64,000 nt of DNA, from assembly GCF_029227915.1 (NCBI RefSeq), contig NC_079876.1:28431828-28495827 (forward strand), in the 5' to 3' direction. A program made the position numbers and the translations under genes. This document shows positions 2,361-64,000 of this stretch, piece by piece; position 1 is the stretch's first letter; each line of letters begins with the position of its first letter. Source of the stretch: Hydractinia symbiolongicarpus. Taxonomy: Eukaryota; Cnidaria; Hydrozoa; Anthoathecata; Hydractiniidae. The notes below the pieces were generated by a model. The model was given only the letters and a program-made list of their open reading frames with translations. It made no database searches and was not told the origin of the DNA.

Positions 2361-2610
2361 CGTCAAACAAAGTAAGAGCCTTTTCTATATGTACCGCACG
2401 ACATTCTCCGTGTGTATGGATTGGTTAATTAAAACCGTGACGGCGTGATACAAACTTAACTAATACTTGCATAATTTCGCGCAAATCAAACGAAGTACGA
2501 GCCTTTTGTTTGTATTCCGTTCGACATTCTCCGTGTATATGGATTAAATTAAAACCGTGACGGCGTGATACAAACTTAACTAATTCTTGCATAAATTCGC
2601 TCAAAAGTGG
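2360..2610. repeat. 120-bp tandem repeat, about two units
   Basis: The string AAAACCGTGACGGCGTGATA occurs at 2431 and again at 2551, with matching flanks (CATTCTCCGTG..., AAACTTAACTAAT...). The period is therefore 120 bp. The array lies directly 3' of the R2-like copy 1 on its coding strand, where copies 2 and 3 carry a USP domain. It may be the 3' tail of the element or unrelated. Confidence 0.8.
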
Positions 2611-3834
2611 TAGAATTTCGAGACATCCAGATGTAAAAAGAAGCACTCATGGAGGTAAAAGTTAGGGATTTTAATAGGGAACGTAAAGGCTTGTTAGGGA
2701 AACCAAGGCGACGAAAACAGATCCTTACTGATTCTGAACAGAAACCCCTTGCACCCACCTCAATGGCAAAGAAATGCACGATCCATCCATTGTTTTTCAT
2801 AGCATAACAAAGTGAAGAATATTTGATAAGCTTTCGTTTGTGCCAATATTCCGTGTTCTCTTCACATGGACAAGTCAGTTCTAACATAATAACAGTTTTG
2901 GAAGAACTGGATATTAATAACACGTCTGGGCGTAGTTGTGTTATTGCAATGTATGGTGGAACAACTAAAACGGACTATAAATCTGACATTATTTTCCAAT
3001 CGGAAGCAAGGTGAAGAAGGCCTGGACATTTTGTATGCCTCTTCTTAGATGGTGATTAACCGGCCAGAATGAAATTAATTTTGTTGCATTTGGAAACCTT
3101 AAGAGGTTCATATGATACCAAAAACTCTTTTAATGCCTTAACCAAAACTATTAAACCCGAGTCATGACGGTATGTGTATCTACCCCGCGTAAGGGAGGTC
3201 CTACAGGCACTCAATATGTGAGAGACATTTCAGGATGGTTTCTTGCACAGAATGCAACTTTTGTCTTTCTCAATTCCCCATCTCACAAGATTGGTTGGAG
3301 AGGGAAGGGTGTCGTAGGTTGCCCCTATACAAAAGGAAGTTAGACATTGTGGCAGTGAAAGAATTGTTCTCCAAGATAAATCATTTTTCACATAAGAGCA
3401 CCATTTCGTCCAATTGCCTTGCAAATGCAACTGTACAGCTCTGGCATGGTAAATACCTTCTTCATTTTCTTAAATGATATTGGAAACAAGCTTTCGGTAA
3501 GCATAAGTGCCTTTTGGTGGTATATTTAGATAGAGAAACTTCATAAATTAATAACGGCGAGCGGATTCTGGGAATTAACAGATGGTGTAAAAACCAAACC
3601 TTATGGATCCCTTTATGAAAGGACCTGTCTATAGCCATAAGTTTGTCTTCGGCATAATTTAGAAATTCTTGTATTGCAGCAGAATCAGACAAGGATGAGT
3701 TTATTGTTCTGCCTAAAAACCTAATTGGATTAGAATGAATGGATGGAATTTTTTCGCTGCCAACTGTAAACGGTGATCTTTGGACGACTTTTCCCTTATC
3801 AATAACAATGCTGCGTGATTTAGAAGGCCTAAAC
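2576..3834 (-). pseudogene. R2-like retrotransposon copy 1, C-terminal part (thumb, CCHC knuckle, endonuclease)
   Basis: Read on the minus strand from 3834: post-palm region (FLGRTINSSLSDSAA; IHKVWFLHHLLIPRIR), a CCHC-type knuckle CILC...HILSAC with an in-frame TGA at the expected third ligand, then RPDVLL...IMLELTCPCEEN...NGWIVHFFAIEVGARG. The latter is a PD-(D/E)XK restriction-like endonuclease pattern as found C-terminally in R2-type LINEs, which nick target DNA for target-primed reverse transcription. Several frameshifts and stops are present. The frame ends soon after YIWMSRNS at about 2640, and no USP domain follows, unlike copies 2 and 3. It is continuous with 8561-10390 across the copia insertion. 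Confidence 0.8.
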
Positions 3835-3972: not shown

Positions 3973-3983
3973 GTAGTTAAACA

Positions 3984-8434: not shown

Positions 8435-8560
8435 TGTTAACATCCTACTGTCTGACTCTAACAATGCAGTTCATTTATGTTTATTATATGTTTGTATATT
8501 TATAGGTATTAATATATAGTGGTGGGTTTATCTATCTCTATTAACATTTGCTAGTTTTCA
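8435..8560 (+). repeat. 3' LTR of copia 1
   Basis: 126 bp copy of the left LTR, followed by the TAAAC target duplication at 8561-8565. Confidence 0.93.
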
Positions 8561-10390
8561 TAAACGACATGCCTACCCAATCAAGAGCTGTTGTACACCT
8601 GTTTAATAAATTTTGAGTACTTGAAATTGACGTGGACATTAAGAACATATCATCCATAAAAGCTTCTATTGGGGGGGGGGGGGGGGGGTTGGTCTGGGAT
8701 TTTTTTTTTATTACCTTCAGTATCAATAAGGCTGGTGGTAACACACACATACTCAATAATAACGTTTATAGCTGCAAGAAATAGTATAATGGAAAGTGTA
8801 CAGCCGATAAAAATTCCCCTACAGTGATTTGATGCCAACTGGAAGGAGCAGAAGCCGAAAAAGACTTACTCCACAGGCTGTCGTAGTATAGCTGTATGAG
8901 CCTTATCCATAATTCTGGTACACCATAGCGTCTGAGAGCCATAAAAATCAGCTTGTGCGGAACTGAAGGGTACGCATTAGCAATATCAAGCCATATGGCT
9001 GAAAGTGAAGAATGTTGTGCCTTCGCATTCTTAAGTGTGGACCAAACAATAGACATGTGTTCCCAGCAACCCGGAACGTTTTCCATACAACCTTTTTGAA
9101 TGGAAGTAATAATGAAGTTGTTTTTCTTTATAATATGCGATTCTAACCGCTTGGAAATCAAACTAAAAAAGAGCTTTCCTTCAACATTAAGAAGAGCTAT
9201 GGGGCGAAAATCCTTTATGTTGGATGGACAAGGTTTGTTGTTTTTAGGTATATAAACTTCTGATGCAATTCTCCATTGCACAGGAATAAAAGACTTCTTT
9301 AGACAAGCTTGAAAATTGTTAAACAGAAGCGATGCAATATGAGGACAATTCTTATATACTGTGTAAGGAATTTAGTTCAGCCCAGGAGAAGAAGCATTTC
9401 TACGAGAATTTAGTACAGCTTGGAAATCCTTGAACTTTAGCTTGGAAGAATCGAAAGCTGAGACTAGATTTGGTGGTGAAGGCAATCCAGGGAGATCTGA
9501 AAGAGGTATATGGCGTGAGGGATCCTTCAAGGTTGAATGTTTGTGTGAATCCATTTCGTCCTGGGCAACTTCAAGTTTTATTGAGCAAATTGGGATCTAA
9601 AATATTTTTTCCAGCCTGATAAGGATTCTTAGAGAAAGCCCAGCGTGCATTCGAGATTTTCCAACGTCTTTTCCTATTCCGCTCACCTCTCCGAAGTAAC
9701 CTTAACTTGGCCATTATATCATCTAAAAGGTTTTGCATGTTGCTTTTCTCAACTGGGTCAGATGTGTTCTTAAGGGTTCGGAGTAGATTGTTCTTCTCGT
9801 TCACCAAACTGATGCTGCGTAGAGCTCTCCTGTTCAAACCTGATAGGTTGTGCTGGGGAAGTGACCTTACACGAAACAGGTGAGACACATGGTAATAAAT
9901 CGTTGATTCCAACAGCTCCACTTTTTTTGATAATGGGTAAGAGCCTAGAAGATTGTGGAAACTGCATCATCAAGGGAATTCCACAATTTTGTGTCAATTG
10001 ACTTCGGCCAAGCAATAGGTTATTTCCATTTCATAGTGCTAAGATGGTCAGGTTCTGTTGATTGCTGAGAAAGAACACTGTGGGAGTTATCCGGGTTAGC
10101 TTTCAGCAGCCGAGACTTTTCAGTGGAATCAACAGCTAGCACATCTTGCAAAACAACTTTACACGGTTATAATGTCCAATGCTTAGTGGAAGGGAGTAAC
10201 GATGAATCTCAGGTAGCGGGAAGGACAGAGGAGTTAGTAATAACGAAATCGATATCCGGAGGGGTAGTCCTAATACGGTCAGGGTCTATATCGTTGGGGG
10301 TACCATTGTTTAAAAAATTTAACTTTGTTGTAGACCATAAAAAATCCCACGGCCGGCCTAAGCTTGGTGGTAGCGACAGATAACAATTGG
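8561..10390 (-). pseudogene. R2-like retrotransposon copy 1, N-terminal part and reverse transcriptase
   Basis: Minus-strand reading: TKLWNSLDDAVSTIF (about 9975), the basic region RRGERNRKRRWKISNARWAF, RNASSPGLN (RT motif 0/1), VYIPKNNKP, IKDFRPIALLNVEGKLF, SIQKGCM, WLDIANAYPSVPH (catalytic Asp), YGVPELWIRLI and the FMDD box at 8640-8660. The motif order and FMDD box are those of RLE-type LINEs annotated as R2-like. A C17 run (reverse of 8672-8688) and several indels break the frame just before the FMDD box. The region upstream of about 10020 is open apart from a few stops but has no recognised domain. Confidence 0.85.
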
Positions 10391-10689: not shown

Positions 10690-11140
10690 CAATAAGAAAA
10701 TAATTTACAAAGAGGTGGCAAGCCACCGCAATGATGAACTCAACCTATTAGGTCTTTGGAAACAAGCTAGACGTTGTACTCCTCTAGAGAAAATGCCTCT
10801 AAAAGCACAATTCTCCCTTTTTACAAGGAATAAATTAAAAATATATATAGAAAAAAAATAAAAAGGACACAACACATTTGAAAAGATGAACAGAACTTTA
10901 ACTAAGGGCAGGTAGGTTTCGACCCATATTTCTGAACCTAAGTACCCTGGATGTCTAGCTGAATCACCTCAAAGAGGTCCGCGGACGGTCATCAGCAGAA
11001 ACTAGACATCCCTATCTTCCTAAAGTAAACTGTGACCACTTTCTATTCAACTGTGCTATTCTTTGTTTTTAACTCAGGTAATAAGTGGAGTCGTTACTCT
11101 CCAAAGACAAGATCATGTGTAATCAAAGCCCCCTGCTATT
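10690..11140 (+). repeat. Rep-A dispersed repeat, full length
   Basis: About 450 bp. The left part (AAAGAGGTGGCAAGCCACCG to TTTCGACCCAT) and the right part (CTGAACCTAAGTACCCTGG to AAGCCCCCTGCT) recur separately elsewhere in the window. It contains conserved hairpins: CTAGACG...CTCTAG-type near 10766, and a 10-bp stem GGATGTCTAG/CTAGACATCC at about 10949-11011. No ORF. Candidate SINE or structured-RNA repeat. Confidence 0.75.
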
Positions 11141-11149
11141 TTTTTTTAA

Positions 11150-15997: not shown

Positions 15998-16212
15998 TTG
16001 GTGTGAACCTGAGTACCCTGGATGTCTAGCTGGGTCACCTCGAAGAGGTCCGCGGACGGTCATCAGCAGAAACTAGACATCCCTATCTTCCTAAAATTAA
16101 CTTTGACCACTTTCTGTTCAACTGTGCTATTCTTTGTTTTCAACGCAGGTAATAAGTGGAGTTGTTACTCTCCAAAGACAAGATCATGTGTTATCAAACC
16201 CCCCTGCTAATA
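15998..16212 (+). repeat. Rep-A right part
   Basis: TGAACCTGAGTACCCTGG to CCCCCCTGCTA. Keeps the GGATGTCTAG/CTAGACATCC stem and the GTAATAAGTGGAGT...TTACTCTCC stem. Confidence 0.75.
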
Positions 16213-16219
16213 TTTTTCT

Positions 16220-20349: not shown

Positions 20350-20413
20350 GCCCTGTTGGTCTAATGGCTAAGACTTATAAATGAGAGATCCAAGTTCGAA
20401 TCCTGGACAGGGC
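20350..20413 (+). tRNA. tRNA-like sequence, anticodon arm degenerate
   Basis: A 7-bp acceptor stem GCCCTGT/ACAGGGC, a D-arm GTCT...AGAC and a T-arm with loop TTCGAAT are present. A and B box-like promoter elements are recognisable. Only about 15 nt lie between the D and T arms instead of about 23, so no normal anticodon arm can form. A second copy at 47619-47684 shares the shortage. Most likely a tRNA-derived repeat or tRNA pseudogene. Confidence 0.45.
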
Positions 20414-20519
20414 TAGGAAAAACATTAATTATGTTGCACATATAGCTATATATTGCAGTGTTAAGGATATTATATTCCGTATACTATGATGTATATATAT
20501 ATATTCTGATTTTTACCCT

Positions 20520-39474: not shown

Positions 39475-39756
39475 TGGTGGCTCACGCACCTTTACACAGG
39501 AGGATGATATGCGGGAGCGGGCGAAGTTGAAGAGGAAGAACGGTGGAAGAGGGAGAGGAGGAGGATATAGGTGGTAAAAAAAAATAATGCTAACACTTGC
39601 TGTTCTTAATTCATTCCTCTCAACCCATCCCCAGACTTTTCTTCTTTTAAAAATTTTCTTTTGCACAACAGTATGCACTTTTAATATTTTGACGTAGTAT
39701 ATAGTTATATAGACATATATGATTTTGAGATAACAAGACAGCAAGCTGTGATGATG

Positions 39757-40375
39757 GAACTGGTCTAACGACCCTTGAAGTTAAAATTGTAGAGGTTACA
39801 CCCTCTAAAGATCAAAACGCAATGCAAGATCTCCCTTTTTGCAAGGATAGTCTGTAGATTCAAGGTAATTGAACCAAACAGCCCTCTCTACACAATATAA
39901 TACGTACAACTAACGGTCGGTACACAAAAACTGACAACATGAAAACAGAAGACAGACATAACGACAACAATACAACAAAGAATTTACTATAAAAATAAAT
40001 AAATAAATATAAAACTATAAATATGAGTAGACAACCACCCGAGTGCCAGGACTTGTGAACCTGGCAGTAGCTTTCCACATGTGATACGGGATCCCAACAC
40101 TCAGCCTTACACGGGTAGTTGTCGCTTTGGACCAGCCATTTGCTTTGGACCAGCCTGAAGACAGTGGAGTAATGAACGTGGATGTAAAGTCACGGACACA
40201 AGAAAGATAGAAATGAAAACCCCTTATATAGCTTCTTCGTAACATCAGGTATAGCAGGATCGTTAACCCGGTAGACTAAGTGAGCCAACTTAGCCTCCCT
40301 ACAGAACTGGGGTTATAAGTGGGGTCGTTACACCCAAAGACAAGGCAATTGCCAAGCCCCCTTGCTAAGCTTCTT
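39757..40375 (+). repeat. Rep-A dispersed repeat, diverged full-length copy
   Basis: Begins near GATGGAACTGGTCTAACGACC, keeps TAGAGG...CCTCTA and a CTCCCTTTTTGCAAGGA block, and ends GGGGTTATAAGTGGGGTCGT then AAGCCCCCTTGCTAAGC. About 610 bp, longer than the copy at 10690 in its middle. It lies just 3' of the R2-like copy 2. Confidence 0.65.
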
Positions 40376-40535
40376 ATAATTGCTTTCTAGGAAAGGGGCG
40401 AGTGAGCGAACTCGTGAATAACGGTAAACTGTATGTAAAACACACAGCAGGGGTAATTTCAAACCGCTAGGAAAAAGAGATCCCTCCCCCTCTTTTGATA
40501 TAATGTACTCCCGTTTTAGTGCGAATTCACACTAT

Positions 40536-42821
40536 TTAAATTTTGACAAAAAATAACACATACACTGTGGAGTTATCTAGATCAGATGGCTTGACTCTAA
40601 TCACTGCCCTATCATCACATTTTAACCATGTATTAACACCCTGATCTCTTATGAAAGCCCAGTAGTGACCAGCCGCCAGTGTGCCTGAATGATTAATAGT
40701 GGCGGTTAATTTATATTGGTTTGTGAATGATATATCCTCCGCAGGATGGGAATAAACATTTAGGGTGTCGTGACCTTGGGCGAGGCAAGAAACAAATTTA
40801 TTATTTTTCACAGATCTTCCTTGGATACAATTAAACCTTTTCAGTTGGATGATCAGTATATCTCCACACTGGGTGAAGACAGTTTCCCGGGTACTGTCTT
40901 GAAGGGAAGAGCACTGTGGGCACATCCATCTGTCATTTCCACACATATATTCTGGTTGCGAAAAAGCTTTAATGGAGCCTGTTATGTTGTTTGAAACAGG
41001 GAGTGGCAGAATGGACATACTTTCCTCCCTACTGGAAGACAAGAGGCATGAATTACAAGATATTGTTGTAGTTACTTTGTTGGTAATAATATTGTTAGCG
41101 ATAACTGATGGCCCTGTTAACTCGTTTAATACATGAGGTAGAATCTCAGGAACATCCTGCTGTGTGTTAATATTGAATGGGTTGTTCCTAGCATTGGACA
41201 TCTTACGTTGTAACGCTCGGAGAAAAGCGGAAGGGTCTACAACTGAGGTGGATTTAGACAACAGAGACATAGTCCGCAAGACGGACTTGGCCAGGGGGGA
41301 AACAAAAGAGGACTCCGATGCACTTTGTGACCAAAGTGCAGGAGTTACAGATAATGCTTGCAGGATAGAAATAGCATAGCATGTATTCCCTTTATTAAAC
41401 AGACCAGCATAAGTTGGTTTTGCTGGAGTGCTGTTGGTAGGCGGTTCTGGTTCCGGGTGTGAGTGACTTTTATCCACAGTTGGCCTTCGTTGTTGATGCT
41501 GTTGTTGTTGCTGCGGGCTTGTAACCTTTGGCAATAGAGGGGTAGGAACAGATGTTGAGCCTGGCACAAGATTGCAGCTGCCTTGGTTCCACGTAATTGA
41601 GTTCCTGGCTAGCCAAATGCAGAAGGATGCTTTCATACAAATGTCGCCTAATTTCCGGAAGGCTTGGAAAGCTTCTTTGTTTGGGAAACCCAATCTTTTT
41701 AAACAAATTGCAACTGACCGAAAGCAATATCCACGTGCACCCACTTCGATCGCGAACAGATTTACGTGCCATCCATTATGCTCGATGATATTTATCAAAG
41801 GGATGTATTTAGAGAGCTTTTTGGAGTGCCAGGTTTCCATGTTTTCCTCACAAGGGCATGTAAGTTCAATTAAAATAACACGTTTGCTGTTGTTGGAATA
41901 CAGGACAAGATCTGGTCTAAGCGATGTTATGGCAATATGACCAGGAAAAATAAGTTCACCATTTAAATCTGAAAGAAATAACCAGTCAGTGGCAAGATGC
42001 AAAAGGCCTACCGGTTTTGATTTTTTGCTAGATGAGTGACTACCTGCTTTAACAAATTTTACATTATTTAGGTGCTTTACAGGAGAGGAAATAGATTTGG
42101 AAAACGTGGTGATCAACTGTAAAAGTTCGCGCAAGACAGAGTCGTGACGAAACGTAAATCTACCCTGTGTTAAAGCCGTTTTGCAGGCCCCTAAAATGTG
42201 AGCTGTAGTGCAGACTTGTTTTCAACACAAGAAACATAAGGATTCGGTACATATACGCCAACGCCTTAAATTACTCGGAGAAGGAAGAACATCATAGGTG
42301 GAGCTTAAACAGAACGACAACAGGTTTGGTGGCATGGCAAGCAAGGACTTCCAGGAGAGGTCGTTCTTAATGTAGTTGTCCCATCTGGTCCAACTTACCT
42401 GTACCTGTATTTGCAAAGCTCTGCTTATATCCTTTTCACCATCAATTTCTTTTGCAGTCACCGATACTAATTTCCTGTAAGAATGAGACTGTCTAAGAGA
42501 AGTTCCCTTAGGTTTAGGACAGAGACCTAAACCGCCCTTACCGAAATGGGGTGAACCCATAATTTCTTTAATCTTTAATTCTGCTTCAGCAATTCTGACT
42601 GAATTGGACACGCTCCATCTACCGACCTTTAATGTTGGTATAGCTGCCGAAACCAATGGATCTTTAGAATCCCTTAGCAGTAAGTGTCCACTGATCTTAG
42701 CGGACTTGAGTATGGAAGTTAGGCTTTTTATCGGTAGAGAGCAAGGTGAGATGGAAGCATAAAGACATAAATTAGTGGTAGAATGTTGAAGATTGAGCCA
42801 TTTCCTTATAAATACTGACAC
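40536..42821 (-). CDS. R2-like protein C-terminal half: thumb, CCHC knuckle, RLE endonuclease and USP deubiquitinase
   Basis: One minus-strand frame of 762 codons broken only by TGA at 42222-42224. After the thumb comes a zinc knuckle CFLC(stop)KQVCTTAHILGAC. In the part from 42134 (532 aa) a restriction-like endonuclease lies at residues 73-150: RPDLVL, LIELTCPCEE, NLFAIEVGARG. Q/P-rich linker 190-240. A complete USP (peptidase C19) spans 243-530: Cys box GLFNKGNTCYAISILQAL (C252), QQDVPE (325-330), zinc pair C360-x2-C363/C405-x2-C408, IIQLKRF and His box SGTLAAGHYWAF (H490) with W-LKCDD (D507/D508). USPs remove ubiquitin from proteins. The fusion could protect the RNP or its products from degradation; that role is inference. 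Confidence 0.88.
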
Positions 42822-42836
42822 CTATAGCCTTGCCCT

Positions 42837-44400
42837 ATGCGCCAGGCGACGCAGGGTGGTCTTTTGTCCTGTGCATATTTATTCACTGTAGTACTGAATT
42901 CCAATAACCCAAACCCTCAAAACTACTACAGTGACAAAGATGTTGATTTTGAGGTAAGCGAGACAGCTTATCCTTGTCACTCAGATCAGTTTCCTCCCCT
43001 AAAAAAGTACAGTGTCGTTCTCAATGATATTTTCTCTGAACGTGGTGCTGAAAAGTTTCAGACAGCGAGTGTATTTCTGGACAAGAACCACACGAATTAC
43101 TCCTGTCACATTGATGAGAAATATCTGAAAGACCTGCATATTAAGACACCAATAAAATGGGGCAAGATGAACGATCCTCTTTGGTCGACCCTGGACAGGG
43201 CTGTTGCTACCAAGTTATCCATAAGTCTATGTGACTCCCTTTCAACTAAAGTCAAACTGATGGAACTGTTTATGAGGAAGCTGCTGCTGACACTGTTTAT
43301 GAGGAAGCTGCACAAATCCTTGGTCATCCAGCAGCAAAGAAGGTTAAAAATATTTCTGGGAAAAATAGGAGAACCTTACACTCTATTAATTTAATAAATT
43401 TAAAAAACTCTCTTGTGACTCAAGTTTTATTTGCCGTAGAGGTTGCTCAAAAGTTCGCTCTGCAGCAGCTGCTTGCCGAAACAAGGGAAAAAATCAAGGT
43501 AATACGTCGGGCAGAGAGACGTCTAAGGAAGAAGGTTAGGTTCAAGGAGGCACAGTCTGCTTTCAGGACAAACCCGTTTGCAGCCTTGCTTGATCCCAAG
43601 TGTGCAGCCACACTGCGTGTCGATCAACAGACATTTGACAATTATAAATCTTTGGTTGTCAAGGATAAATTGTATGACGTTCCCTTGTGTAATCTAGAAG
43701 GTCTTCCTGCTGCCCCTTCTATTACGAAAATTTTTCCCTCACATTCTCTTAAATAGAAAGACTTTTTTAACTCTTTTAGCAACCAGAAGGAATGCGTCAT
43801 CTCCTGGTTTAAACGCTATTCCCTATAAAGTTTATAAAAAGTGTCCCAAAATAAATACTCTCTTGTTCAATGTTTTTAAATCTTGTATAAAAAATTGTGT
43901 TGTCCCTGTTCAATGGCGTAATGCTCGTGAAATTTATATTCCAAAAACCAAAACTCCAATGGAGTCAAACATAAAAGACTTTCGACCAATTGCACTTCTA
44001 AATGTCTAAGGTAAGCTTCTTTTCAGCCTTGTATCAAGGCGTTTAGAAACTTATATGATAACAAATAACAAATTTATCAATACATCTGTTCAGAAGGGAT
44101 GTATGGAAAAGGTTCCAGGCTGCTGGGAACACATGTCGATGGTTTGGTCAGCACTTAACGATGCCCGCTCTTCTAAGTCGGATCTAGCTACCATCTGGCT
44201 AGATATAGCAAGTGCTTACCCTTCAATTTCTCATCGACTTATCTTTTTTGCCCTTAAGCGCTATGGTGTTCCTCCACAGTGGATTTCTTTTATTAGAAAT
44301 TATTACATTGGCTTCTACAGCAAATCATTCTCTCCCCTTGCACCAAGTAATTGGCATAAACATACGCCGGGAATTTTTGCAGGCTGTACGCTATCCATTA
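42837..44400 (+). pseudogene. R2-like copy 2, inverted 5' half, first segment (N-terminal region and RT fingers/palm)
   Basis: Plus-strand reading: the N-terminal region (42837-43394) includes MNDPLWSTLDRAVATKL and then EEAAQILGHPAAKK in a shifted frame. That shift lies beside a duplicated 18-bp block, TGTTTATGAGGAAGCTGC, near 43268/43297. The basic helix is RRAERRLRKKVRFKEAQSAF. RT blocks are RRNASSPGLN, EIYIPKTK, IKDFRPIALLNV, VQKGCM, WLDIASAYPSISH (catalytic Asp), YGVPPQWISFI and PGIFAGCTLSI, up to the TA at 44399-44400 where the pogo element inserted. A few indels and a stop (LLNV*) are present. Confidence 0.82.
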
Positions 44401-46287
44401 CTTTAAAGGAAGAAATTTTCGCGGAAGAAATTTTCGCGAGGCCAAAAAATCGCGAAATTTTTGGAATTTATTTTCGCGAATAGCCTCTCCTAAAATTTTT
44501 CGCAGGAATATATTTTCGTGAATGAACACTATCGAAATTTTTCGCGAGAAAAAACTTTCGCGAATGGCCTATTTTTAAAATATTTCGCGAGAATAAACTT
44601 TCGCGAACGAAGACATTTTTGATTTTTTTATACGTGCCTAATTTATAAAAAACGTGTTTTTTATACAAAAAGCAGTTATATAAATGACAGCTGATTTGAG
44701 AATGTAAGTTTTTCTTTCGTTTGCACTTTTTCAAAACACAAAATAAACTATATATAAACAAGTTTTACAGGGTAAAGCTTTTCGTATTAACGAGTAACAA
44801 AAATATTTGTTCTAACAGTGTCATTGTTCATCTTCCATGCTTTCAAAAGCGTCAAAAGCAGATCTTTCCCACACAAAATCACAATCCTCATCTTCGTCGT
44901 CTTCACCGCTATCGTCATTTTCGTCGTCGTCGGCTCTTTCAGAGTATCCAATCTGCTTTTCTTCCAAGGTCAAACCACAAACCGATTGAAGCAGCTGGTT
45001 CTCCACTGGACTGCTTTCACATAACGGGTCGATCTCTTGAAATGGGTCGATTGGAGGGAGATTCTTGCTACCCAGCTGAATCACATCAGTAATTCCCGCT
45101 GCTCTCCATTCACTTTCAATGATACTTTTTCCTTTGCTGGTAGTCATCTCATCATAAAAGTCGACAACCCATTGAGCATGTAGGGGTTTGAGAGTAGTTA
45201 AACGCAGCTTAACATCTACTTCATCAATTTTGACCACATCATTAAGCTGCTTTGAAATTTGATCAGCTTACCAGGTGCTGAATTTATTTCTCAAGAAGCG
45301 CTCTGCATGTCCATTGACAGTTAAATCTAATGGTTGATAAAACTTGGTCATATTTGCTGGTACATTGACGACACATATGTGGTTTTCCTTGATCTTATTG
45401 AGGACTTCGCTCGTCATTTGGCCAGTAAATACATCCCTGATAAGCAATCCTTTTTGATCAGGAGGTAGCTTGAGTGTTGCTCGTTCTTCTTTTAGGTAGG
45501 GCGAAATGATTTCTTCAATTATTTTGATTGACTCTGTCGTGTTAGAGTAGTGAGTGGGGTTTGCACTCAAACTGAAGCCGTCTGGAAACTTAAAGCGAGG
45601 TAGACTCTGTTCCGTCTTTCCCCCGTAGATCAGCTGGATAGGCAAAAACTTATTTGTAAACGTTATTCCAAATGTTCCAGTAATCGATCGTTTGTCGCTA
45701 GCAGCTTCCATGACTACGGACGCTGAACCACGTTTGGCTAGGGTGAAATTACCAGTTGGGACATATTTTAGGGGTGTTTGGTCAATGTTGATGATCATGG
45801 AGTGTGGTATGTTATGCTTTTCAATAAGGGTGACGATCTCATGGTGAAACAAAAATTCCATTTCTTTCCTGGCACCGTCAGGAATATTAACCTTTGAGGA
45901 AGTCTTCATCCGCCGAACGAACCCCATACGCTTGAATAAGCTTTTTGCCCAACTTGATGAATCGACATCAATGTTTCCAACGGCGCCCGGATACCTTGAC
46001 ATAAGAGCTTTGGCTGTAGCCTTGGCCAAGCTTGAGTGAGAAGTGCAATAAATAAAACCTTGCACATTTTTCTCAAACTTTTCCCCAATAAGGTATTTGT
46101 TATGTTGCAAAAAAATTTTTTTCGCGGGAATTTATTTCCGCGAATCAAGCATACTTGAAAATTTCGCGGGAATTTATTTTCGCGAACGACCCCTTTTGAT
46201 TTTTTTCGCGGGACTTTATTTTCGCGATTTTGGCCAAAATTCGCGAAATCGCGAAAATTTCTTCCGCGAAAATTTCTTCCTTTAAAG
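44401..46287 (-). mobile_element. pogo-like (Tc1/mariner-related) DNA transposon, TA target duplication
   Basis: Terminal inverted repeats are identical over 39 bp, starting CTTTAAAGGAAGAAATTTTC at both ends (44401 and, inverted, ending 46287). TA flanks both sides (44399-44400, 46288-46289). Inside the ends are many subterminal TTCGCGGGAAT...TTTTCGCGAA-type repeats (44420-44610, 46115-46275), likely transposase-binding sites. Encodes a DDE_1 transposase on the minus strand. Confidence 0.92.
44821..46110 (-). pseudogene. pogo/Jerky-like DDE_1 transposase, N-terminally truncated, one internal stop
   Basis: The minus-strand frame 46110-45268 continues in the same frame to 44821 after a single TAA at 45268-45270. 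Motifs: part of the CENP-B-type DNA-binding domain, then MIINIDQTPLKYVP (first Asp), KRSITGTFGITFTNKFLPIQ, LLIRDVFTGQMT (second Asp), CVVNVPANMTKFYQPLDLTV (third acidic residue) and RLTTLKPLHAQWVVDFYDE. An Asp/Glu-rich tail follows (44830-44930). The N-terminal HTH is missing because the frame opens close to the terminal repeat. The core is otherwise well preserved, indicating recent activity. Confidence 0.85.
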
Positions 46288-46289
46288 TA

Positions 46290-46771
46290 TCCTTTTTCTT
46301 GCAGGCATCAATATTATTCTTGAGTATACATTACTGGCTTCCACTTCCAGGTTCATCACATCACGCAAAGTGTCACTCCCCTTGATTAGAGCCTTTATGG
46401 ACGATATCAACCTGATGTCTTCATCAGTGTCTGGTACCCAAACGCTTTTGTCCAGGTGTACTGCAGCACTAAAATGGGCTGGCATGGATTTTCGTGCTAA
46501 CAAATCACGCAGCATCGTGATCATAAAAGGTAAGTCCCTCAATTCAACTCCTTTTGCTCTCCAAAAGCCTGCTGACCCCACAGACTTCTCTTCCTACATT
46601 CCTTCTATCCGTTCCATGCCTATGCGATTTCTAGGCCGTATTATGGATGGTTCTATCTCCGATAGGAAGGCTATTGACGAACTTGATCAGAAGTTATCTG
46701 CAGGGGTCTCTATTATTGACAAGTCATTTTATAAAGGCCCTCAGAAGCTGTGGATTTTATATAGACAGTCA
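46290..46771 (+). pseudogene. R2-like copy 2, inverted 5' half, second segment (FMDD box and palm)
   Basis: Continues the RT of 42837-44400 in the same frame once the pogo element and one TA are removed: LFLAGINIILEYT, then IRAFMDDINLMSSS with the catalytic FMDD box (about 46396). MDFRANKSRSIVI, MRFLGRIMDGSISDRKA and IIDKSFYKGPQKLWILY follow. Breaks off at about 46765-46771, the presumed twin-priming point. Confidence 0.82.
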
Positions 46772-47618: not shown

Positions 47619-47684
47619 GCCTTGTTAGTCTAATGGCTATGACACTCGTAAACGAGAGATCCAGGTTCGAATCCTGGACAGGGC
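47619..47684 (+). tRNA. tRNA-like sequence, anticodon arm shortened
   Basis: Acceptor stem GCCTTGT/ACAGGGC (one G-T pair), D-arm GTCT...TGAC, and a perfect T-arm CCAGG-TTCGAAT-CCTGG containing the B-box GGTTCGAATCC. Only 17 nt separate D- and T-arms and form a hairpin CTCG-TAAA-CGAG too short for an anticodon loop. Same family as 20350-20413. Better viewed as a tRNA-derived repeat than a working tRNA. Confidence 0.5.
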
Positions 47685-47819
47685 ATGAAAAACATTATCT
47701 TGCACCTACAACAACCCCGTTGTATTATATTGATAAAATTCTGTATATTGACCTTATAATACCTTAATTAAATATATGTAATCTTCGAGTTGTAGAAGGG
47801 GAAGGAGTGTATATTTAAA

Positions 47820-48269: not shown

Positions 48270-48728
48270 CAGGACTTCTGCAAAGGGTACAAGGGTTTCA
48301 ACTCATATTCCTGAACTAAGGTACCCAAAATGTGTAGCTGAGTCACCTCAAAAGAGGTCTGCGAACAGTCTTCAGCAGGAACTAGACATTTCTTTCATCC
48401 ATAACTTTTCATCTGTCCTACTCTGTACAATCTTGTGTGACTGGGGTAATAAGTAGAGTCGTCACTCTCCAAAGATAAGACCAATGCAGTCAAGCCCCCT
48501 TGCTGACATAATTTTTATTTTGTTTTTCTGATTTTGTTTTTTGTTATTTCCTTTTTGACTGGGGTAATAAGTGGAGTCGTCACTCTCAAAAGATATGACC
48601 TGGTACAGTCAAACCCCCTTGCTGGCGTAATTTTTTTTGTTTTTCGCTTTTATTTTGACTGGGGTAATAACTTGAGTCGTCCCTCTCCAAAGTCAAGACC
48701 ACAAAAAATAGTCAAACCCCCTGGTCCT
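48270..48728 (+). repeat. Rep-A right part with triplicated tail
   Basis: CTGAACTAAGGTACCCAAAA then the stem AAATGTGTAG/CTAGACATTT. The tail GACTGGGGTAATAAG...AAGCCCCCTTGCT is repeated three times (about 48437, 48557, 48656). The stem differs from other copies by paired changes. Confidence 0.75.
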
Positions 48729-50731: not shown

Positions 50732-51052
50732 TGTTGAATAATATTTGTTATGGTTCAGAAGATATATTTACTTCACAATGTACATACATAAATGTTTACA
50801 GTCAGCTTATATATAGTCTTTACATGGAACTTGCTAGAAAATACTAGTATACAAGAAAAAACGTCTAGAATGTTCCAGAAACAAAGATGGCGTCTAGTAA
50901 GCAACGACAAGAAAGTTCCAACGTATGTTCTAGAGAGTTCAAGTACATATATACATGATGTAATGTCCATACTACATGAATGTTCAAGAATGTTCTGGAA
51001 TGTTCCGTAATGTTCCAGTAAATATCTGACTAGAGTGTCTGTAATTTCAATA
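50732..51052 (-). repeat. 3' LTR of copia 2
   Basis: 321 bp, about six to eight differences from 55032-55352. Confidence 0.92.
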
Positions 51053-51059
51053 CTCCTCC

Positions 51060-51383
51060 TCACTCGCTGTCAGATAGTTCGTAAATACCACTCCTTTCGC
51101 GTAGTTCATTAAATTGAACACGACCCAATCCTTTTGTCAATACGTCCGCAACCATGTCCTCGCTCGGACAGTACACCAACATGATCTTCTTATTCGTAAT
51201 CTGTTCTCGTATGTAGTGATGCTTAATGTCAATATGTTTTGTACGTCCATGAAACTTTGGATTTCTCGCCATACAAATTGTTGACTGATTGTCTTCGTAG
51301 ATCAAAGTTGGCTCGTCTGATTTCTCGTTCATGTCATTAAGAATTCGTCTCAACCAAATAGATTCCTGTGCTGCACTTGACAA
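51060..51383 (-). pseudogene. copia 2 RNase H C-terminal part, out of frame
   Basis: SSAAQESIWLRRILNDM, LIYEDNQSTICMARNP, HIDIKHHYIREQI and YCPSEDMVADVLTKGL are the C-terminal RNase H blocks of copia elements. The join to the upstream frame at about 51370 skips the expected stretch between STSGH and the SSAEAEY-type block. One catalytic Glu is therefore lost by a deletion of about 90 bp and the frame changes. Confidence 0.85.
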
Positions 51384-54103
51384 TGACCAGATGTTGATTT
51401 TCGATCGTCAAGATCGCCTGCCCAATTCGCATCTGAATATCCGGTTAAACCACTTTTATCACCATATAATAAACCATAGTTGACTGTGCCATTCAAATAT
51501 CTCATAATACGTTTGACTGCAGACCAATGATGTGTCGTAGGTTTTGAAGTGTATCTTGCAACGTTTCCAACAGCATATGCAATATCTGGTCTTGTTTTCG
51601 TTGACAGATAAAGGAAACATCCAACTGCTGATTGATATATGTCTTGGTCAAACAGAATATCGTCGTCTGTTGGTTTCATCAATCTTGCTCCGGCTTCAGT
51701 AGGAGTTGCGACAGCTTTCGAATTTTGCATGTCAAACTTCGTTAGCACTTCTTTGATGTAGGTTGGTTGACCAATCCATATCTTCCCTGGTTCTAGATGA
51801 ACGACTTTAACGCCAAGGAAATGATGTAACTTCCCCATGTCTTTTACGTCAAATTTTACACCAATTTCTTGAATGATTTGTTGGATTTGCGTACTTGATT
51901 TCCCTGCTAATAGGATATCATCAACGTATACAGCCAATATAAACATCTCTCCTCCTGAAGTCATCGTGTAAATGCAAGGATCATTCGTCGAAGGGGTAAA
52001 TCCACATTTCTTGAGATGTTTATCCAAAGCTTCATTCCAGCATCGCGACGATTGCTTTAGACCATATATACTTCTCTTCAGCTTGCAGACCATATTCTCC
52101 TTCCCTTTAATCTCGAAACCCTCAGGTTGTTTCATGAAGATGTCTTCTTTCAATTCGCCATTCAAGAATGCGGTTGTTATATCCAATTGATGTAGTTGAA
52201 GATTATATTTCGCTGCCAATGCAATCATTGTCCTTATTGATTCGAATCTTACTACGGGACAAAATGTTTCATCATAGTCAATTCCACTTTTCTGTGTGAA
52301 TCCTTGCGCTACCAATCTTGCCTTGTGCCGCTCTACGTTTCCATCTGCATCACACTTTCGTTTGAACACCCATTTGCTTCCAACAGCTTTACGTCCATCC
52401 GGCAGTTCAACGACATCCCATACATCGTTTTTGTATAGTGATTTGATTTCCCTTTTCATTGCGTCGATCCAATTTTCTTTGTCATCACTTTGAAGTGCTT
52501 CTTTGATTGACTTTGGATCTGGTACTTCTTCTGCAACATATACCCAATCACCGTAACGATCTGGTGCTTTTCGTTCTCGTCTCTGCCTATCGGTTTGTAA
52601 AGGTTCACCGTTGTCATTTTTGTCAACGTCATTATCTTCAAATTCCAATTCCACTTCATGTTGCTTGACAACTTCTTTTGGAGCTTCTTTGTCATCCTTC
52701 TCCTTAGTTCGTGATTTAGTTTCGTTGAAGACAACATCTCTGCTGAAGAAAACTCTTTTCTTCACTTCATCGTACAACCGAAAGCCTTTGGTTGTCGTAC
52801 CATATCCCAGGAAAATGCATCGTTTCGTCTTTGAATCCACTTTTGCTCTCTCGTCCTTTGGAATGAGTGCGTAAGCGTTGCATCCAAATATACGAAGATC
52901 GCTGACATTTGGTTTGTGTCCAGTCCAAACTTCATATGGTGTCATACCTTTAACAGCACTTGTAGGACTACGATTTCGTAAGTAACTTGCTGTTGATAAT
53001 GCTTCTGCCCAAAAACGCTTGGGTAACTTTGAATCCGCTAACATGGCTCGCACCATTTCCACAAGTGTCCTGTTCATTCTTTCAGCCACACCGTTCTGTT
53101 CTGGATTCTTTGGAACTGTTGTTTCATGTCGAATACCTTCTCTTTTGAGATAGTTCTCAAATTCATTTGAAGTGTATTCTCCTCCGTTGTCCGTTCGAAA
53201 TACTTTAATTCTCGAACCGCTTGACTTTTCGACCATTGCTTTCCATTCCACAAAACTTTGGAATGCGTCGCTTTTGTTTTTCAGCATATACACCCACACA
53301 TGTCGTGACTTATCGTCGATAAAGGTGATAAAATATTCAGCTCCGCTAAGTGACTTCTCTTCAATCTTTCCACACACGTCACTGTGCACTAATCCAAGTA
53401 ATTCATTGGACCGCACTCCTCCTTTCTTTGGAAAAGGTGTCCGGTGCTGCTTTCCATCAACACATGATTCACAAAACTTTGCATTCTTTAATGTATCGTA
53501 TTCAAATCCATCAACCAAATTATCTTTTGCCAGCATTTCCAGACTTTTAACCCCAAGGTGACCGTAACGTCGGTGCCAAATTGATTCTTTTGTGTCGTCA
53601 CTTCCACACATTGCAAACTCGCTTTCCGCTTCTCCCTGTTGACTACAGTTGAGATGATACAGGTTTCCAGACTTTGTAGCAGTAGCTACTACTTTGTTGC
53701 CATCCAATATACGGCATTCCGACTGACCAAACTCAAACCTCTTACCGGACTTTGTTCCCTTTGAGACACTCAAAAGATTGTAAGACAGTTGTGGTACGTA
53801 TAAAGTTTCATACAATCGGCATTGTTTCACTTTTACATCCGGGATGTTCACGAATAATTGCACTGTCCCTTTACCAATAGCTTCCAGTGAGTATCCGTCC
53901 CCAACAGTAATCTTCTGTGGTTCCTCGAGTTCAACAATGTCAATAAATAAGCTCTCGTCATTGCACATATGACACGTGGCTCCAGAGTCCACTATCCAAT
54001 CGCTTAACTTTTCGGATGCTACTAAAGAATGTTCGACAACAAATCCGAGTTCGATTTCTTCGTCGGACTCCTTCTTTTCGGCGGTACAAGCTTTTTGGTT
54101 CAT
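51350..54103 (-). CDS. copia 2 Pol: protease, integrase, reverse transcriptase
   Basis: A 917-codon open frame, the longest in the window. Protease WIVDSGATCHMC; integrase zinc domain HRRYGHLGVKSL...CESCVDGKQ; catalytic core SDVCGKI (D), FRTDNGGEYTS (D), NPEQNGVAERMNRT (E); RT KARLVAQGFTQKSGIDYDET, LDITTAFLNGEL and LAVYVDDILLAG (YVDD); RNase H start GYSDANWAGDLDDRKSTSG. Gag lies upstream in the same frame, separated by a single TGA. Apart from the RNase H deletion the protein looks functional. It drives cDNA synthesis and integration with 5-bp duplications. Confidence 0.95.
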   Translation of the reverse strand: MNQKACTAEKKESDEEIELGFVVEHSLVASEKLSDWIVDSGATCHMCNDESLFIDIVELEEPQKITVGDGYSLEAIGKGTVQLFVNIPDVKVKQCRLYETLYVPQLSYNLLSVSKGTKSGKRFEFGQSECRILDGNKVVATATKSGNLYHLNCSQQGEAESEFAMCGSDDTKESIWHRRYGHLGVKSLEMLAKDNLVDGFEYDTLKNAKFCESCVDGKQHRTPFPKKGGVRSNELLGLVHSDVCGKIEEKSLSGAEYFITFIDDKSRHVWVYMLKNKSDAFQSFVEWKAMVEKSSGSRIKVFRTDNGGEYTSNEFENYLKREGIRHETTVPKNPEQNGVAERMNRTLVEMVRAMLADSKLPKRFWAEALSTASYLRNRSPTSAVKGMTPYEVWTGHKPNVSDLRIFGCNAYALIPKDERAKVDSKTKRCIFLGYGTTTKGFRLYDEVKKRVFFSRDVVFNETKSRTKEKDDKEAPKEVVKQHEVELEFEDNDVDKNDNGEPLQTDRQRRERKAPDRYGDWVYVAEEVPDPKSIKEALQSDDKENWIDAMKREIKSLYKNDVWDVVELPDGRKAVGSKWVFKRKCDADGNVERHKARLVAQGFTQKSGIDYDETFCPVVRFESIRTMIALAAKYNLQLHQLDITTAFLNGELKEDIFMKQPEGFEIKGKENMVCKLKRSIYGLKQSSRCWNEALDKHLKKCGFTPSTNDPCIYTMTSGGEMFILAVYVDDILLAGKSSTQIQQIIQEIGVKFDVKDMGKLHHFLGVKVVHLEPGKIWIGQPTYIKEVLTKFDMQNSKAVATPTEAGARLMKPTDDDILFDQDIYQSAVGCFLYLSTKTRPDIAYAVGNVARYTSKPTTHHWSAVKRIMRYLNGTVNYGLLYGDKSGLTGYSDANWAGDLDDRKSTSGHCQVQHRNLFG

Positions 54104-54160
54104 GGGTTTCTTCTTGAACTTTCCATCCGATCTTGAATAATTTCCCGCCTTGTTGAGATC

Positions 54161-54871
54161 TCAGTTTCGTTTAATATGTCCGTAATTACCACACTGATAA
54201 CACTTTGGACATTTCTGGTTACGCTGATGATGCTTTAACGTCATCGCCTTTATTCCTGGCTCTGTTTCTACCATGTCTTTCTGTTTGCTTTCTTCGTGAA
54301 GCAGTCGCTCTGTAACAACGTCAATTTTTGGTACCTCCGAACTTGCTTCGAGCGCCGTGACCAACATGTCGTACGAACGCGGCAAACTTGCCAACAAATG
54401 AACCACCTTATTTTCGTCATCCAAAGGATCACCAACAATCGCTAACTCTTCAAAAATCTCCGTCATTGTTTTGATGTGAGTCTGTACCGATTGTCCTTCC
54501 TTTAACTTTAACGCATAAAGTTTTCGACGTAATGCCAATTTGTTGGCCCAAGATTTTTTTTGAAATTGATTGGCTAACCTTTTCCATACTTCTGCGGGAT
54601 CCTCTGGATCCGGACCAAGTAGATATAGGAGAGACGGTTCAATCGATAAAACGATAGTAGCCAATGCCTTGTCTCTTCTCAATGCATATTTCACCGCTGC
54701 TGCTTCGCCATCAGCAGGAGCACCTTCAGTTTCATTAACAATTTTCCACAAACCTTCTCGTACCAATGCCATCTTACATTGCAACTTCCATGTCGCATAA
54801 TTTGATCCATTCAGCGGTTTCAAAAGAATCTTCGTTGCTTCCGCAGCCATTATTCCTCCGGATACTTTCAA
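54161..54871 (-). CDS. copia 2 Gag
   Basis: The frame opens at 54871 and the likely start is MAAEATKILLKPLNGSNYAT at about 54850, as in other copia Gag (UBN2/DUF4219-type) proteins. KSWANKLALRRKLYALKLKE and the zinc knuckle CYQCGNYGHIKRN follow. The fourth ligand Cys codon is TGA (54161-54163). The same frame then continues directly into Pol. This stop is the only separation of Gag and Pol. Confidence 0.9.
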   Translation of the reverse strand: MKVSGGIMAAEATKILLKPLNGSNYATWKLQCKMALVREGLWKIVNETEGAPADGEAAAVKYALRRDKALATIVLSIEPSLLYLLGPDPEDPAEVWKRLANQFQKKSWANKLALRRKLYALKLKEGQSVQTHIKTMTEIFEELAIVGDPLDDENKVVHLLASLPRSYDMLVTALEASSEVPKIDVVTERLLHEESKQKDMVETEPGIKAMTLKHHQRNQKCPKCYQCGNYGHIKRN

Positions 54872-55017
54872 CTAAATACCGGAATACCAATGTTTTGATT
54901 CCGTGATAACAATCACCAAAATTCCGTGAACTACAAATTTCCAAGATGGCGTCAAGTTGTGTACGTACTTTGTTTACAAGTTTCTTCTCACTATCTTCAG
55001 TTATACTGGGCAATACT

Positions 55018-55031
55018 CTGGGCCCATAACC
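55018..55031 (-). promoter_or_regulatory. Primer-binding site, internal initiator tRNA-Met fragment
   Basis: On the element strand GGTTATGGGCCCAG abuts the 5' LTR. It is complementary to the anticodon-arm segment CUGGGCCCAUAACC of initiator tRNA-Met, the half-tRNA priming known for Drosophila copia. Confidence 0.75.
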
Positions 55032-55352
55032 TGTTGAATAATATTTGTTATGGTTCTGAAGATATATTTACTTCACAATGTACATACATAAATGTTTACA
55101 GTCAGCCTATATATAGTCTTTACATGGAACTTGCTAGAAAATACTAGTATACAAGAAAAAACGTCTAGAATGTTCCAGAAACAAAGATGGCGTCTAGTAA
55201 GAAACATCAAGAAAGTTCCAAGGTATGTTCTAGAGAGTTCAAGTACATATATACATGATGCAATGTCCATACTACATGAATGTTCAAGAATGTTCTGGAA
55301 TGTTCCGTAATGTTCCAGTAAATATCTGACTAGAGTGTCTGTAATTTCAATA
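55032..55352 (-). repeat. 5' LTR of copia 2
   Basis: 321 bp, paired with 50732-51052. Contains ATATATAGT-type promoter-like sequence. Confidence 0.92.
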
Positions 55353-56003
55353 CTTCAAAATCTTATCAGCTCAATGGACTTTAAATTTGATGTAATTGGA
55401 TTGTCAGAAGCGTTACAAACAAATAAGGATAGCACTATACATGAACTGCCAGGATACTACCCCCTTGACTTTATTTCTGGCATAACCCAAAACTCTGGAT
55501 GTGGCCTTTACATCAAAAACAACCTAAAATACAAAGTCGTGACGACATATTTTCGGTCAATCTCAGTAAAAATGAAAAATTTGAGGTTTTGTTTATAGAG
55601 GTTTTTAATAAGTCAGGAATCATTTTAATTGGAGTTATTTACCGTCATCCAAAAAATAATTTAAACGAGTTTTTGTTACATATGAATGATGTTCTCCATA
55701 ACATTCAAAAAGCGAACAAAAAAGTTATCATGATGGGGAACTTAACATTAATATGTTAAAATTTGAATCTCACTCTAACACTGGCTCTTTTTTAAATATA
55801 ATGTTAGAAAAATTTTTACAACCACACATTGTACAGCCTACAAGATTTAACAACAACCAGAAGTTCACCTTGATTGACAACATCTTTTGTAATGATATAG
55901 TTAACCCATGTACAAGTGGAAACCTAATCTCTCATATTTCGGTTCACTTACAAAATTTTCTCATTATTAAAGACATACTCTCTGTTATTGCGGACAATAC
56001 AAA
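55353..56003 (+). pseudogene. APE endonuclease of the LINE, 3' of copia insertion
   Basis: Frames 55335-55598, 55499-55759 and 55753-56007 give FDVIGLSEALQ, SGCGLYIKNNLKYK, VLFIEVFNKS, ILIGVIYRHPKNN, MMGNLTL (usual GDFN site, altered), VQPTRFNNNQKFTLIDNIFCN and SGNLISHISVHLQ. This is the exonuclease-endonuclease-phosphatase fold used by APE-type LINEs to nick target DNA. Two frameshifts. At about 56003 it is replaced by the R2-like copy 3. Confidence 0.85.
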
Positions 56004-56960
56004 TTAATGGTTGGGCAGTTCACTTCTTCGCAGTTGAGGTTGGCGCTCGTGGGTACTGTTCAGATTCTGTGCATACTTGTTTACGTCGTCTAGGTTTTTC
56101 ACCCAAGTTAATTCGTTGCACTCAAAAATTACTTGGTTCTATTGCAATGAAATGTTCCTTCCATATTTGGTTGGCCAGAGATTCAAAACCTTGGGAAACG
56201 CTTACTACAACAACAGACAGTTTCCTGGAAAGAAGTCACCTTTCAAATTTGCCAAAAGCAAATCACCTGTCCACATAACTGACACGAAAATAACATCCTC
56301 AGGTTCAACAAAAGAGTTAATGCTTACAAACAGTGGAATACAAAATAAGGGTAACACTTGCTATGCAAATTCTATTCTGCAATGTTTAAACTCCCTGCCG
56401 CAATTCCATGTAGCCCTCTTGGCGAAAATCCTTCCTTGTCACCTCTTGCTTCAGCTTGCTCGAATGTTTTCCACCAATTGTCATCTTTAAAAGTCCCAGT
56501 TGATCCATCAGCTTTCCTTGCAGCCCTAAAAAATGCTATAGGTAAAGTAAAAGGTAATTTTGATATTTTTACACAGCATGATGTGCCTGAGATCCTAGGT
56601 TACTTGCTAAGTGAACTTGCTACAGACTTGCTTTTTACTACCACCATGTTCCAGTTTACAATCACTTGTGACACATGTTTCCAATCGCACTCTACTGATG
56701 AAATATCTCTATTTCTTGAATTGCAACAAAGACTCACAATTCAAGAGTCATTGAACCTCTTCTTAAAACCCGAGGTTTTGACAGGAAATGATAAGTGGGT
56801 TTGCCCTCTGTGTAATTCACATCAAACAACAACACGAGAGACGGAAATTGTGAACAGTGGTTCACACCTTATATTGCAGTTAAAGCGTTTCATCATGTCA
56901 AATGGTCATATCTCAAAACAAGTGTCGCCAGTTTCATGTTTCCCAGACTTCTGCAGCAGT
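56003..56960 (+). pseudogene. R2-like retrotransposon copy 3: end of RLE and USP domain, 5'-truncated
   Basis: Starts within the endonuclease (NGWAVHFFAVEVGARGYCSD), then LARDSKPW, a linker and, after a frameshift near 56150-56280, the USP Cys box GIQNKGNTCYANSILQCL (about 56337). A second shift leads to VDPSAFLAALK, TQHDVPEILGYLLSE, CDTC/CPLC zinc pairs, KWVCPLCNS and LILQLKRFIM. The copy ends at about 56955 before the His box, where an unrelated repeated sequence begins. It is clearly diverged from copy 2 yet has the same domain order, so the USP belongs to the element family. Confidence 0.85.
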
Positions 56961-62800: not shown

Positions 62801-63186
62801 GTTAATTTTCCTTTATACTTCGGGTTATCGATGTTTTCTAAAGCAGGAAATATTTAAATGCTTGCCATGTATCAGAGTTTGAAGTCATTTTGTTTTTAAT
62901 AGCTGTGTGATTTGATGTTTATAGTTTGTCTCAACTTGTGAAGAGTTTCACTAGCAGGCGCTTAATGTTTTGACTGCTAGCACTTTGTGCATGCGCAATT
63001 ATTTCGCAAAATCAAATCACACAAAAGCCATCTATATACTGGAAACCACCTTCATGTATCTAGGAAAGACAAGAAAGGGGGGACACTGCAAAGTTCACAA
63101 AATAGGGTTTTATTTTTGGCCAGCATCTAGCTTCAAAACGCGTGAAAAAGGGTGTCACTTCAAAGTGGTGAGTTCTTCAACAGTTA

Positions 63187-64000
63187 GTGACCAAACTTGA
63201 GCAAAATAGAATAGCTAATGGAAAAGTTTTAGATCAGTCTCCTTTTTGTGTCCTGCAAGATCCAATCCCATCTATTCACGCAAACCCAGTTAAGTTTCTT
63301 GGCTGGACGATAAATTCAACATTGTTAGATTCAGCTGTTGTCCAACAGGTTATTGTTAACGCTGCTCTACAGCCAGTCAATCTCATAGATAAGTCTTCCC
63401 ATAGAGGCATTCACAAAGTGTGGTTTTTGCATCATCTTCTAATTCCCTGAATACGATGGCCTTTTTTAATTTACGAAGTTCCGATATCTCGTATTGTTTC
63501 ACTAGAACAAAAGTTTTCTTTCCTCATAAGAAAGTGGCTGAGACTCCATCACTCTATTTCTAACATAAATTTGTATTCCGCTTCATCGCCATGCCTGTTA
63601 CCTTTAAAAAGTCTATCCTCTGTACTAAAATCTGCTAAGATCAGCAGTCATCTTATCCTCCGAGATTCGGCTGATCCTCTAGTCTCAGACTCTCCTCCAG
63701 ACTTTAAGGCTGGACACTGGAAGGTAGATCAAACAGTAAAATCAGCAGAGTCAACTCGAGTTCAAGAAAATACTTGCTTTCCACCAGTTTGGTAGAGCAG
63801 GCTTGGGACTGGTTAGCCATAAGAGTGTCCCAGCAATTGGTACCCATTCTTACCGCAAACTTGTATCAGATGTTGTGCAGGACAATGAGTAAGACATCTA
63901 TTATGCTCGAGCCGTTCAGCTTCATGTCCAAGGTAACTGGACTAAATGGTGCTCGTTTATTAAATACGATCTTTCTTGGAAGAACCTACTGTCTCTGCCG
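63187..64000 (+). pseudogene. R2-like retrotransposon copy 4, post-palm region, continues past window
   Basis: Plus-strand reading: IHANPVKFLGWTINSTLLDS, SSHRGIHKVWFLHHLLIP, a stop, IRWPFLIYEVPIS, FLIRKWLRLHHS, LPLKSLSSVLKSAKISSHLI, FGRAGLG-type text in a shifted frame, SHKSVPAIGTHSYRKLVSDV and NWTKWCSFIKYDLSWKNLLS. Same order as copies 1 and 2. The part covering 63446-63560 shows the roughly 30 residues missing at the copy 2 inversion junction. RLE and any USP would lie beyond 64000. Confidence 0.82.

Follow-up and report, generated by a model that had tools for sequence, protein, structure and literature searches.

A complete USP deubiquitinase domain behind the endonuclease of an RLE-group LINE in Hydractinia symbiolongicarpus

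When a complete ubiquitin-specific protease (USP) domain follows the endonuclease of a LINE in one reading frame, it must be asked whether the USP belongs to the element or to the place where the element landed. This question was raised by a locus of Hydractinia symbiolongicarpus within a stretch of 64,000 nucleotides, which was analyzed as a whole and is called the window here. An earlier note had described an R2-like LINE at this locus, with a single frame that contains one TGA and runs from the thumb to a full USP domain. The frame was confirmed on the minus strand by ORF reading, Pfam, and motifs. The element ORF is read from 42821 to 40536, where 199 open codons (42821-42222) close in the only TGA and the frame then stays open for another 561 codons (42221-40536), and the domains are arranged in the order of thumb, CCHC knuckle, PD-(D/E)XK endonuclease (RLE), Q/P-rich linker, and full USP. 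Within 40536-42821, a domain-bearing open frame was absent from the plus strand, and a plus-strand reading was discarded because stops occurred throughout. The features of the window are summarized in Table 1.

Table 1. Features of the USP-bearing element and of its relatives in the window.
Feature	Position	Strand	Basis or remark
3' UTR, containing blocks that are conserved between subfamilies, ending ...CTCAAAATCAT at 39719	39719..40535	-	alignment with L009, L015, L017, and L022
USP (peptidase C19): Cys box, two CxxC pairs, His box, Asp	40548..41405	-	Pfam UCH, 1.8e-33; residues conserved across subfamilies
Q/P/S/T-rich linker between RLE and USP, fast-evolving	41406..41582	-	17-38% identity among three subfamilies vs 44-54% for USP
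RLE and second half of CCHC knuckle: RH, RPD...E, KLSKY	41583..42221	-	51% identical to copy C, E 1.65e-60
CCHC zinc knuckle, broken by TGA at 42222-42224	42183..42236	-	knuckle motif
RT thumb and linker region	42225..42821	-	79-aa alignment with copy D at 59% identity; joined to RT in L009 and L015
Inverted 5' half: leader, N-terminal region, RT, FMDD	42822..46759	+	RVT_1 profile positions 39-129, then 150-202
DDE_1 DNA transposon nested in RT, inverted ends CTTTAAAGG..., TA on each side	44401..46283	-	boundaries by eye
Candidate target-site duplication, left, TTATATAGACA	39705..39715	+	11-bp repeat
Candidate target-site duplication, right, TTATATAGACA	46757..46767	+	11-bp repeat; 3-nt overlap with element
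Copy B: RLE C-terminus, linker, USP; frameshifted, USP cut before His box	55967..56942	+	groups with L005
Copy C: knuckle and RLE; RT part at 8544-9500(-), past a nested copia element	2597..3541	-	groups with L007
Copy D: RT end and thumb, truncated at the window end	63172..64000	+	continues as L043 outside the window

Profile searches for the USP, RT, and RLE domains, as suggested in the earlier note, were successful for the USP and, in related loci, for the RT. Pfam UCH matched the translated 561-codon frame (P0002) at residues 273-558, covering profile positions 2-254 of 254 with an E-value of 1.8e-33. RVT_1 was found in the related loci L009 and L015, while the window copy gave two weak halves, both below the cut-off (E 0.00041 and 0.00053). 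For the RLE alone, no significant Pfam or PDB sequence match was obtained, and it was identified by its signature motifs. The signatures described for RLE LINEs are a CX2-3CX7-8HX4C knuckle followed by RH, PD...E, and KX2KY (PMC5678591). The RLE of the window copy presented RH, RPD...E, and KLSKY, the last corresponding to KX2KY, and its knuckle fitted the pattern if the TGA was counted as one spacer position, the thumb region ending in ...CFLC before the TGA. By sequence, the window USP was matched in the PDB by USP8, USP15, USP46, USP12, USP2, and others. Its Cys box, His box, and Asp are all present, as are the two zinc CxxC pairs, the identities of the catalytic residues being established knowledge of USPs. 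The structure of P0002 predicted from a 4-row alignment had a mean pLDDT of 38.8 and was set aside. In addition, a sub-threshold Pfam match to the ubiquitin-like APG12 was observed in the RT thumb (L017 frame residues 613-670 and P0001; E 0.0043 and 0.13), which is probably due to chance.

The whole element spans about 39719-46759 and extends beyond the 40536-42821 first given. The window copy is a single insertion whose 5' half is inverted. In the inverted half, the RT is interrupted by a DDE_1 transposon, which we take to be pogo/Tigger-like, and resumes past it, through FMDD, up to about 46759. Between the two halves, 84 nt of the element are absent, as counted against L022 of the same subfamily. 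An inverted 5' half is the layout expected from twin priming, as known from work on L1. The same inverted layout was found in a young copy of >99% identity (L031:1-4659, in USP-forward orientation), in which the inverted part begins at element position 1296, goes back to position 1, and continues into an upstream tail, and the direct part extends from 2865 to the end. The 11-bp repeat on both sides of the window copy is given as a candidate target-site duplication only, because the longest words shared by the two ends of young copies (11 with both ends inside the locus) measured 4-6 bp, and no convincing duplication was found among these copies. The window copy is dead, as it bears a 5' inversion of the twin-priming layout and was later disrupted by a stop and by a DNA transposon.

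Three more RLE copies touch the window, and they entered the analysis independently of the finding. Copies B and D carry a USP, and copy C does not. Copy B was identical to the window copy at 53% and 40% over 77 and 178 residues, respectively. In L043, the continuation of copy D, the RLE is followed by ~0.7 kb of other sequence and then by linker and USP, with the frames shifted. In the case of copy C, neither a USP nor a remnant of it was found in 2.6 kb downstream, where a 120-bp tandem repeat starts immediately, and the copy nests inside the USP-bearing clade. Because a second, diverged RLE and USP copy is present in the window and intact 1426-codon copies are present elsewhere, the domain order is more than a chance arrangement.

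Other repeats were also observed in the window. A copia-type element at 3835-8561 (rve, RVT_2), with 127-bp terminal repeats of 99.2% identity, lies between the RT and the thumb/RLE of copy C, and another copia element at 50732-55354 has gag and pol frames and 323-bp end repeats of 97.8% identity. Repeats at 48438-48656, 10915-11146, and 16004-16217 resemble by eye the L007-type 3' UTR motif (TGACTGGGGTAATAAGTGGAGTCGTCACTC) and are probably short 5'-truncated members. At the Rfam gathering score, the matches in the window were two tRNAs, at 47619-47685(+) and 20350-20414(+), and no rRNA was found there at that score.

The genome itself (480,894,487 bases in 76 contigs) was searched with the PF00443 profile, which gave at least 150 matches, 149 of 1015 first-look candidates having been scored. 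Frames of 1426 codons without a stop contained six of the USP matches, and further matches lay in frames of 1422, 1423, 1379, and 1345 codons. The frame of L009 contains the N-terminal region, an RT with FMDD, the thumb, the knuckle, the RLE, the linker, and the USP; Pfam RVT_1 (8.1e-16) and UCH (3.8e-32) matched in this one frame, and L015 (RVT_1 4.7e-17) and L017 were alike. The L009 knuckle CFLCHKEICTSAHILGAC fits CX2-3CX7-8HX4C, with a Pfam zf-RVT match below the cut-off at that place, and the RLE presents RH at 901, PD at 979 with E at 995, and KVAKY at 1011.

The spacing of the two domains was determined for the 44 USP stretches in loci L001-L044 that reached a length of 600 nt (tblastn, E 1e-6; four duplicate loci removed). 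These loci were entered through the USP search and, with the window copy, correspond to 41 of the 150 rows, mostly the best-scoring ones. An RLE was located upstream of 36 of the 44 stretches, at 115-184 nt in 35 and at 814 nt in L043, and since the loci were sampled through the USP, this fraction cannot count RLE copies without USP. For the other eight, no RLE was present within 900 nt upstream; in four of them (L003, L024, L027, and L033), the similarity to a relative begins in or just before the linker, a start pattern that looks as in a 5'-truncated insertion. The earlier note had considered that copies might consistently end after the RLE and the USP be found only here, as a host-gene exon; the latter part was contradicted by the 36 stretches with RLE and by the six 1426-codon frames. 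The USP belongs to the element because intact, nearly identical copies exist elsewhere in the same genome, and the fusion characterizes the element rather than the locus. In scans of viral and prokaryote contigs, no relatives were found.

The ends of the copies were consistent with one another. The L009 subfamily ends with ...TTGTAAACCTTTTTCA, at a point about 755 bp past the USP stop that varies by one to three bases. Among 29 tabulated ends, 16 led into flanks that were all different and 9 led straight into the start of the next unit, while L026 ended inside another member and three were diverged, cut, or unaligned. The copy starts were scattered along the element and the 3' end with the USP was retained, that is, the 3' end was fixed and the 5' truncation was variable. 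The USP is inside the mobile RNA and undergoes reverse transcription together with the other parts of the element.

Tandem arrangement was a further observation. In the fetched loci, all nine L009-type unit starts abutted the 3' part of another unit at the same junction (L009:1209-1689, L010, L011, L012, L013, L014, L016, and L041). The preceding 3' part measured from 111 bp (L016) to 2,026 bp (L041), was at least 2,128 bp long in L011, and comprised the whole unit in L010. L022, which belongs to the subfamily of the window copy, had the same appearance at its unit junction. The abutting starts suggest that RNA is read through from one tandem copy into the next and that the upstream tail contains a promoter. 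Moreover, blocks of the 3' UTR (window 40000-40420(-) and L009:6480-6770) showed about 80-90% DNA identity across subfamilies and may represent the RNA that is recognized by the RT. The last 70 bp of the L007 type (L007:2804-2873) were 97% identical to the L009-type 3' end despite strongly differing proteins, and an exchange of 3' ends between these subfamilies is possible.

As copies of several subfamilies were available, the histories of the two domains were compared. The RLE and USP trees had the same topology for five subfamilies (L015, window-A, L009, L007, and L005 types, window A being the window copy), and the node joining L009 with the L005 and L007 types, which is shared by both of these small trees, had support values of 0.90 and 0.91. 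The agreement suggests that the USP was captured once and that the two domains then descended together. Most likely, there was a single acquisition, and it preceded the split of at least five subfamilies.

From this architecture, a role of the USP can be proposed. An intact ORF of about 1420 residues would comprise the N-terminal region, RT, thumb, CCHC knuckle, RLE, low-complexity linker, and USP, and its product would build the usual machine of target-primed reverse transcription. The USP, held on the low-complexity linker behind the DNA-cutting domain, would remain with the particle in cis and would strip ubiquitin from the particle itself or from proteins in contact with it. Protection from ubiquitin-marked destruction would then last until target-primed reverse transcription is complete. 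We regard protection of the element's own RNP as the most likely function of the USP. The reading as a whole, in which the ORF of an RLE LINE includes a singly captured and putatively active USP that travels in cis and protects the RT-RNA particle, is considered reasonably probable. Only tentatively would we go on to propose a living clade of RLE LINEs in which an active USP is required for retrotransposition and, delivered by the RLE, edits the ubiquitin of the integration complex or of the target chromatin.

The same fusion could also act at the target. The RLE would bring the USP to chromatin, where histones or DNA-repair proteins would be deubiquitinated for cleavage, priming, and second-strand synthesis. 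This fits with a USP that is separated from the DNA-cutting domain by some 40-60 linker residues and with flanks that vary between insertions, and an involvement of DNA repair has been raised for transposon-borne Ulp1 and OTU proteases (PMC2836005). However, particle protection is served equally well by the same fusion, and action at the target is judged possible but rather unlikely. Accordingly ranked, protection of the element's own particle would be the first choice and removal of ubiquitin from histones or repair proteins at the cut the second.

A USP that was captured once and has since been carried without function, or used only occasionally, was also considered. Between subfamilies, which are 32-56% identical in the USP, the catalytic and zinc positions are retained: the catalytic Cys and the four zinc Cys were present in 11 of 11 aligned USPs and the His and Asp in all 10 that reach them (copy B stops earlier), nine of the 11 having come from the USP profile search, which favors well-kept domains. 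Among L009, L015, and window A, the USP had a pN of 0.30-0.37, well under the pS of 0.77-0.86, which is saturated, while the adjoining linker had drifted to a pN of 0.48-0.66; between window A and copy B, pN was 0.43 and pS 0.84. In contrast, the share of nonsynonymous changes in the USP of the youngest copies was large. Six young copies, each compared with L009, had 9 nonsynonymous and 2 synonymous changes in the USP, with a pN/pS of 1.23 in which shared changes were counted repeatedly. Constraint on the USP is not visible in this youngest burst, which would be expected of copies that are not selected singly and equally of a passenger, and copy C without USP would also suit a passenger. Considering the retained residues and the drifted linker, we hold a mere passenger to be improbable.

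Processing of the element's own polyprotein in the manner of a viral protease was also considered, as the protease ends a long ORF and is preceded by a low-complexity linker. USPs cleave after ubiquitin. However, no ubiquitin domain was found above the Pfam cut-off in the scanned ORFs, only the sub-threshold APG12 match in the thumb, and such processing is therefore very improbable. Host-type USP genes do occur in the genome (L001 and L002, 26-28% identical to the element USPs by tblastn; they are outside the 44 stretches, being too short at E 1e-6, although L001 gave one longer stretch at E 1e-4), but a host gene, its exon, or a retrocopy lying beside an RLE fragment was ruled out, with practically no probability left to it, by the common order and spacing, the intact single frames in dispersed copies, copy B, and the agreeing RLE and USP trees.

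The element presents a natural fusion of a DNA-cutting endonuclease with a predicted deubiquitinase. Since RT, endonuclease, and USP are in one protein, a single active-site change can test ubiquitin removal in target-primed reverse transcription, and the same change could ask what gets deubiquitinated. On the basis of Ulp1, OTU, and one C19 domain in mobile elements, a participation of ubiquitin-type pathways in transposition has been proposed (PMC2836005).

By its sequence features, the element is an RLE-group non-LTR retrotransposon. The earlier designation as R2-like can be kept if it is taken broadly to mean an RLE LINE, R2 proteins being the best PDB matches of the RT, but membership in the R2 clade proper is not supported, because neither an N-terminal zinc finger nor a Myb domain was found by Pfam and the flanks differ between copies. 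R2 is described with N-terminal zinc fingers and Myb (PMC5678591); in the frames of L009, L015, and L017, of which the last starts inside the N-terminal region, neither was detected at E<=0.01, a search that divergent fingers may escape. The 16 ends with different flanks do not correspond to one specific site in 28S rDNA.

Proteases of related pathways have been found in other mobile elements, and the statement of the earlier note that Ulp1- and OTU-type proteases are known there agrees with the descriptions in PMC4640811 and PMC2836005. The BLAG elements were rejected as a precedent, as their extra domain, a motif located between zinc finger and RT, is not a USP (PMC7650587). No RLE LINE with a USP was named in the titles and abstract beginnings among the open-access matches listed, and because no such element appeared among these matches, we regard the element as a new form of RLE LINE.

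Among the Dualen/RandI elements, Dualen carries an OTU-like protease, which is of another protease class than USP. Similar to the present element, Dualen/RandI elements are RLE-bearing LINEs, and Dualen is reported to carry both APE and RLE (PMC4640811). The nematode elements NeSL and Utopia-1_TSP are RLE LINEs with an N-terminal Ulp1-like protease (PMC4640811). They resemble the window family as RLE LINEs with an acquired cysteine protease of the ubiquitin/SUMO pathway; however, their protease is Ulp1-like and N-terminal, whereas that of the window family is a USP and C-terminal, and no Ulp1 was found in the Pfam scan of the three long ORFs (L009, L015, and L017). Ginger1 transposons possess a C-terminal OTU or Ulp1 domain, and one protein of T. 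vaginalis combines transposase_11 with peptidase C19 (PMC2836005). In these cases, as here, a deubiquitinase-type domain is part of a mobile-element protein, but the elements are DNA transposons and not LINEs. R2 and the other RLE LINEs (R2Bm and R2Tg; CRE, R2, R4, NeSL, and HERO) have RT, thumb, knuckle, and RLE in one ORF, as does the element described here, in which, as a difference from them, the RLE is followed by a whole USP.
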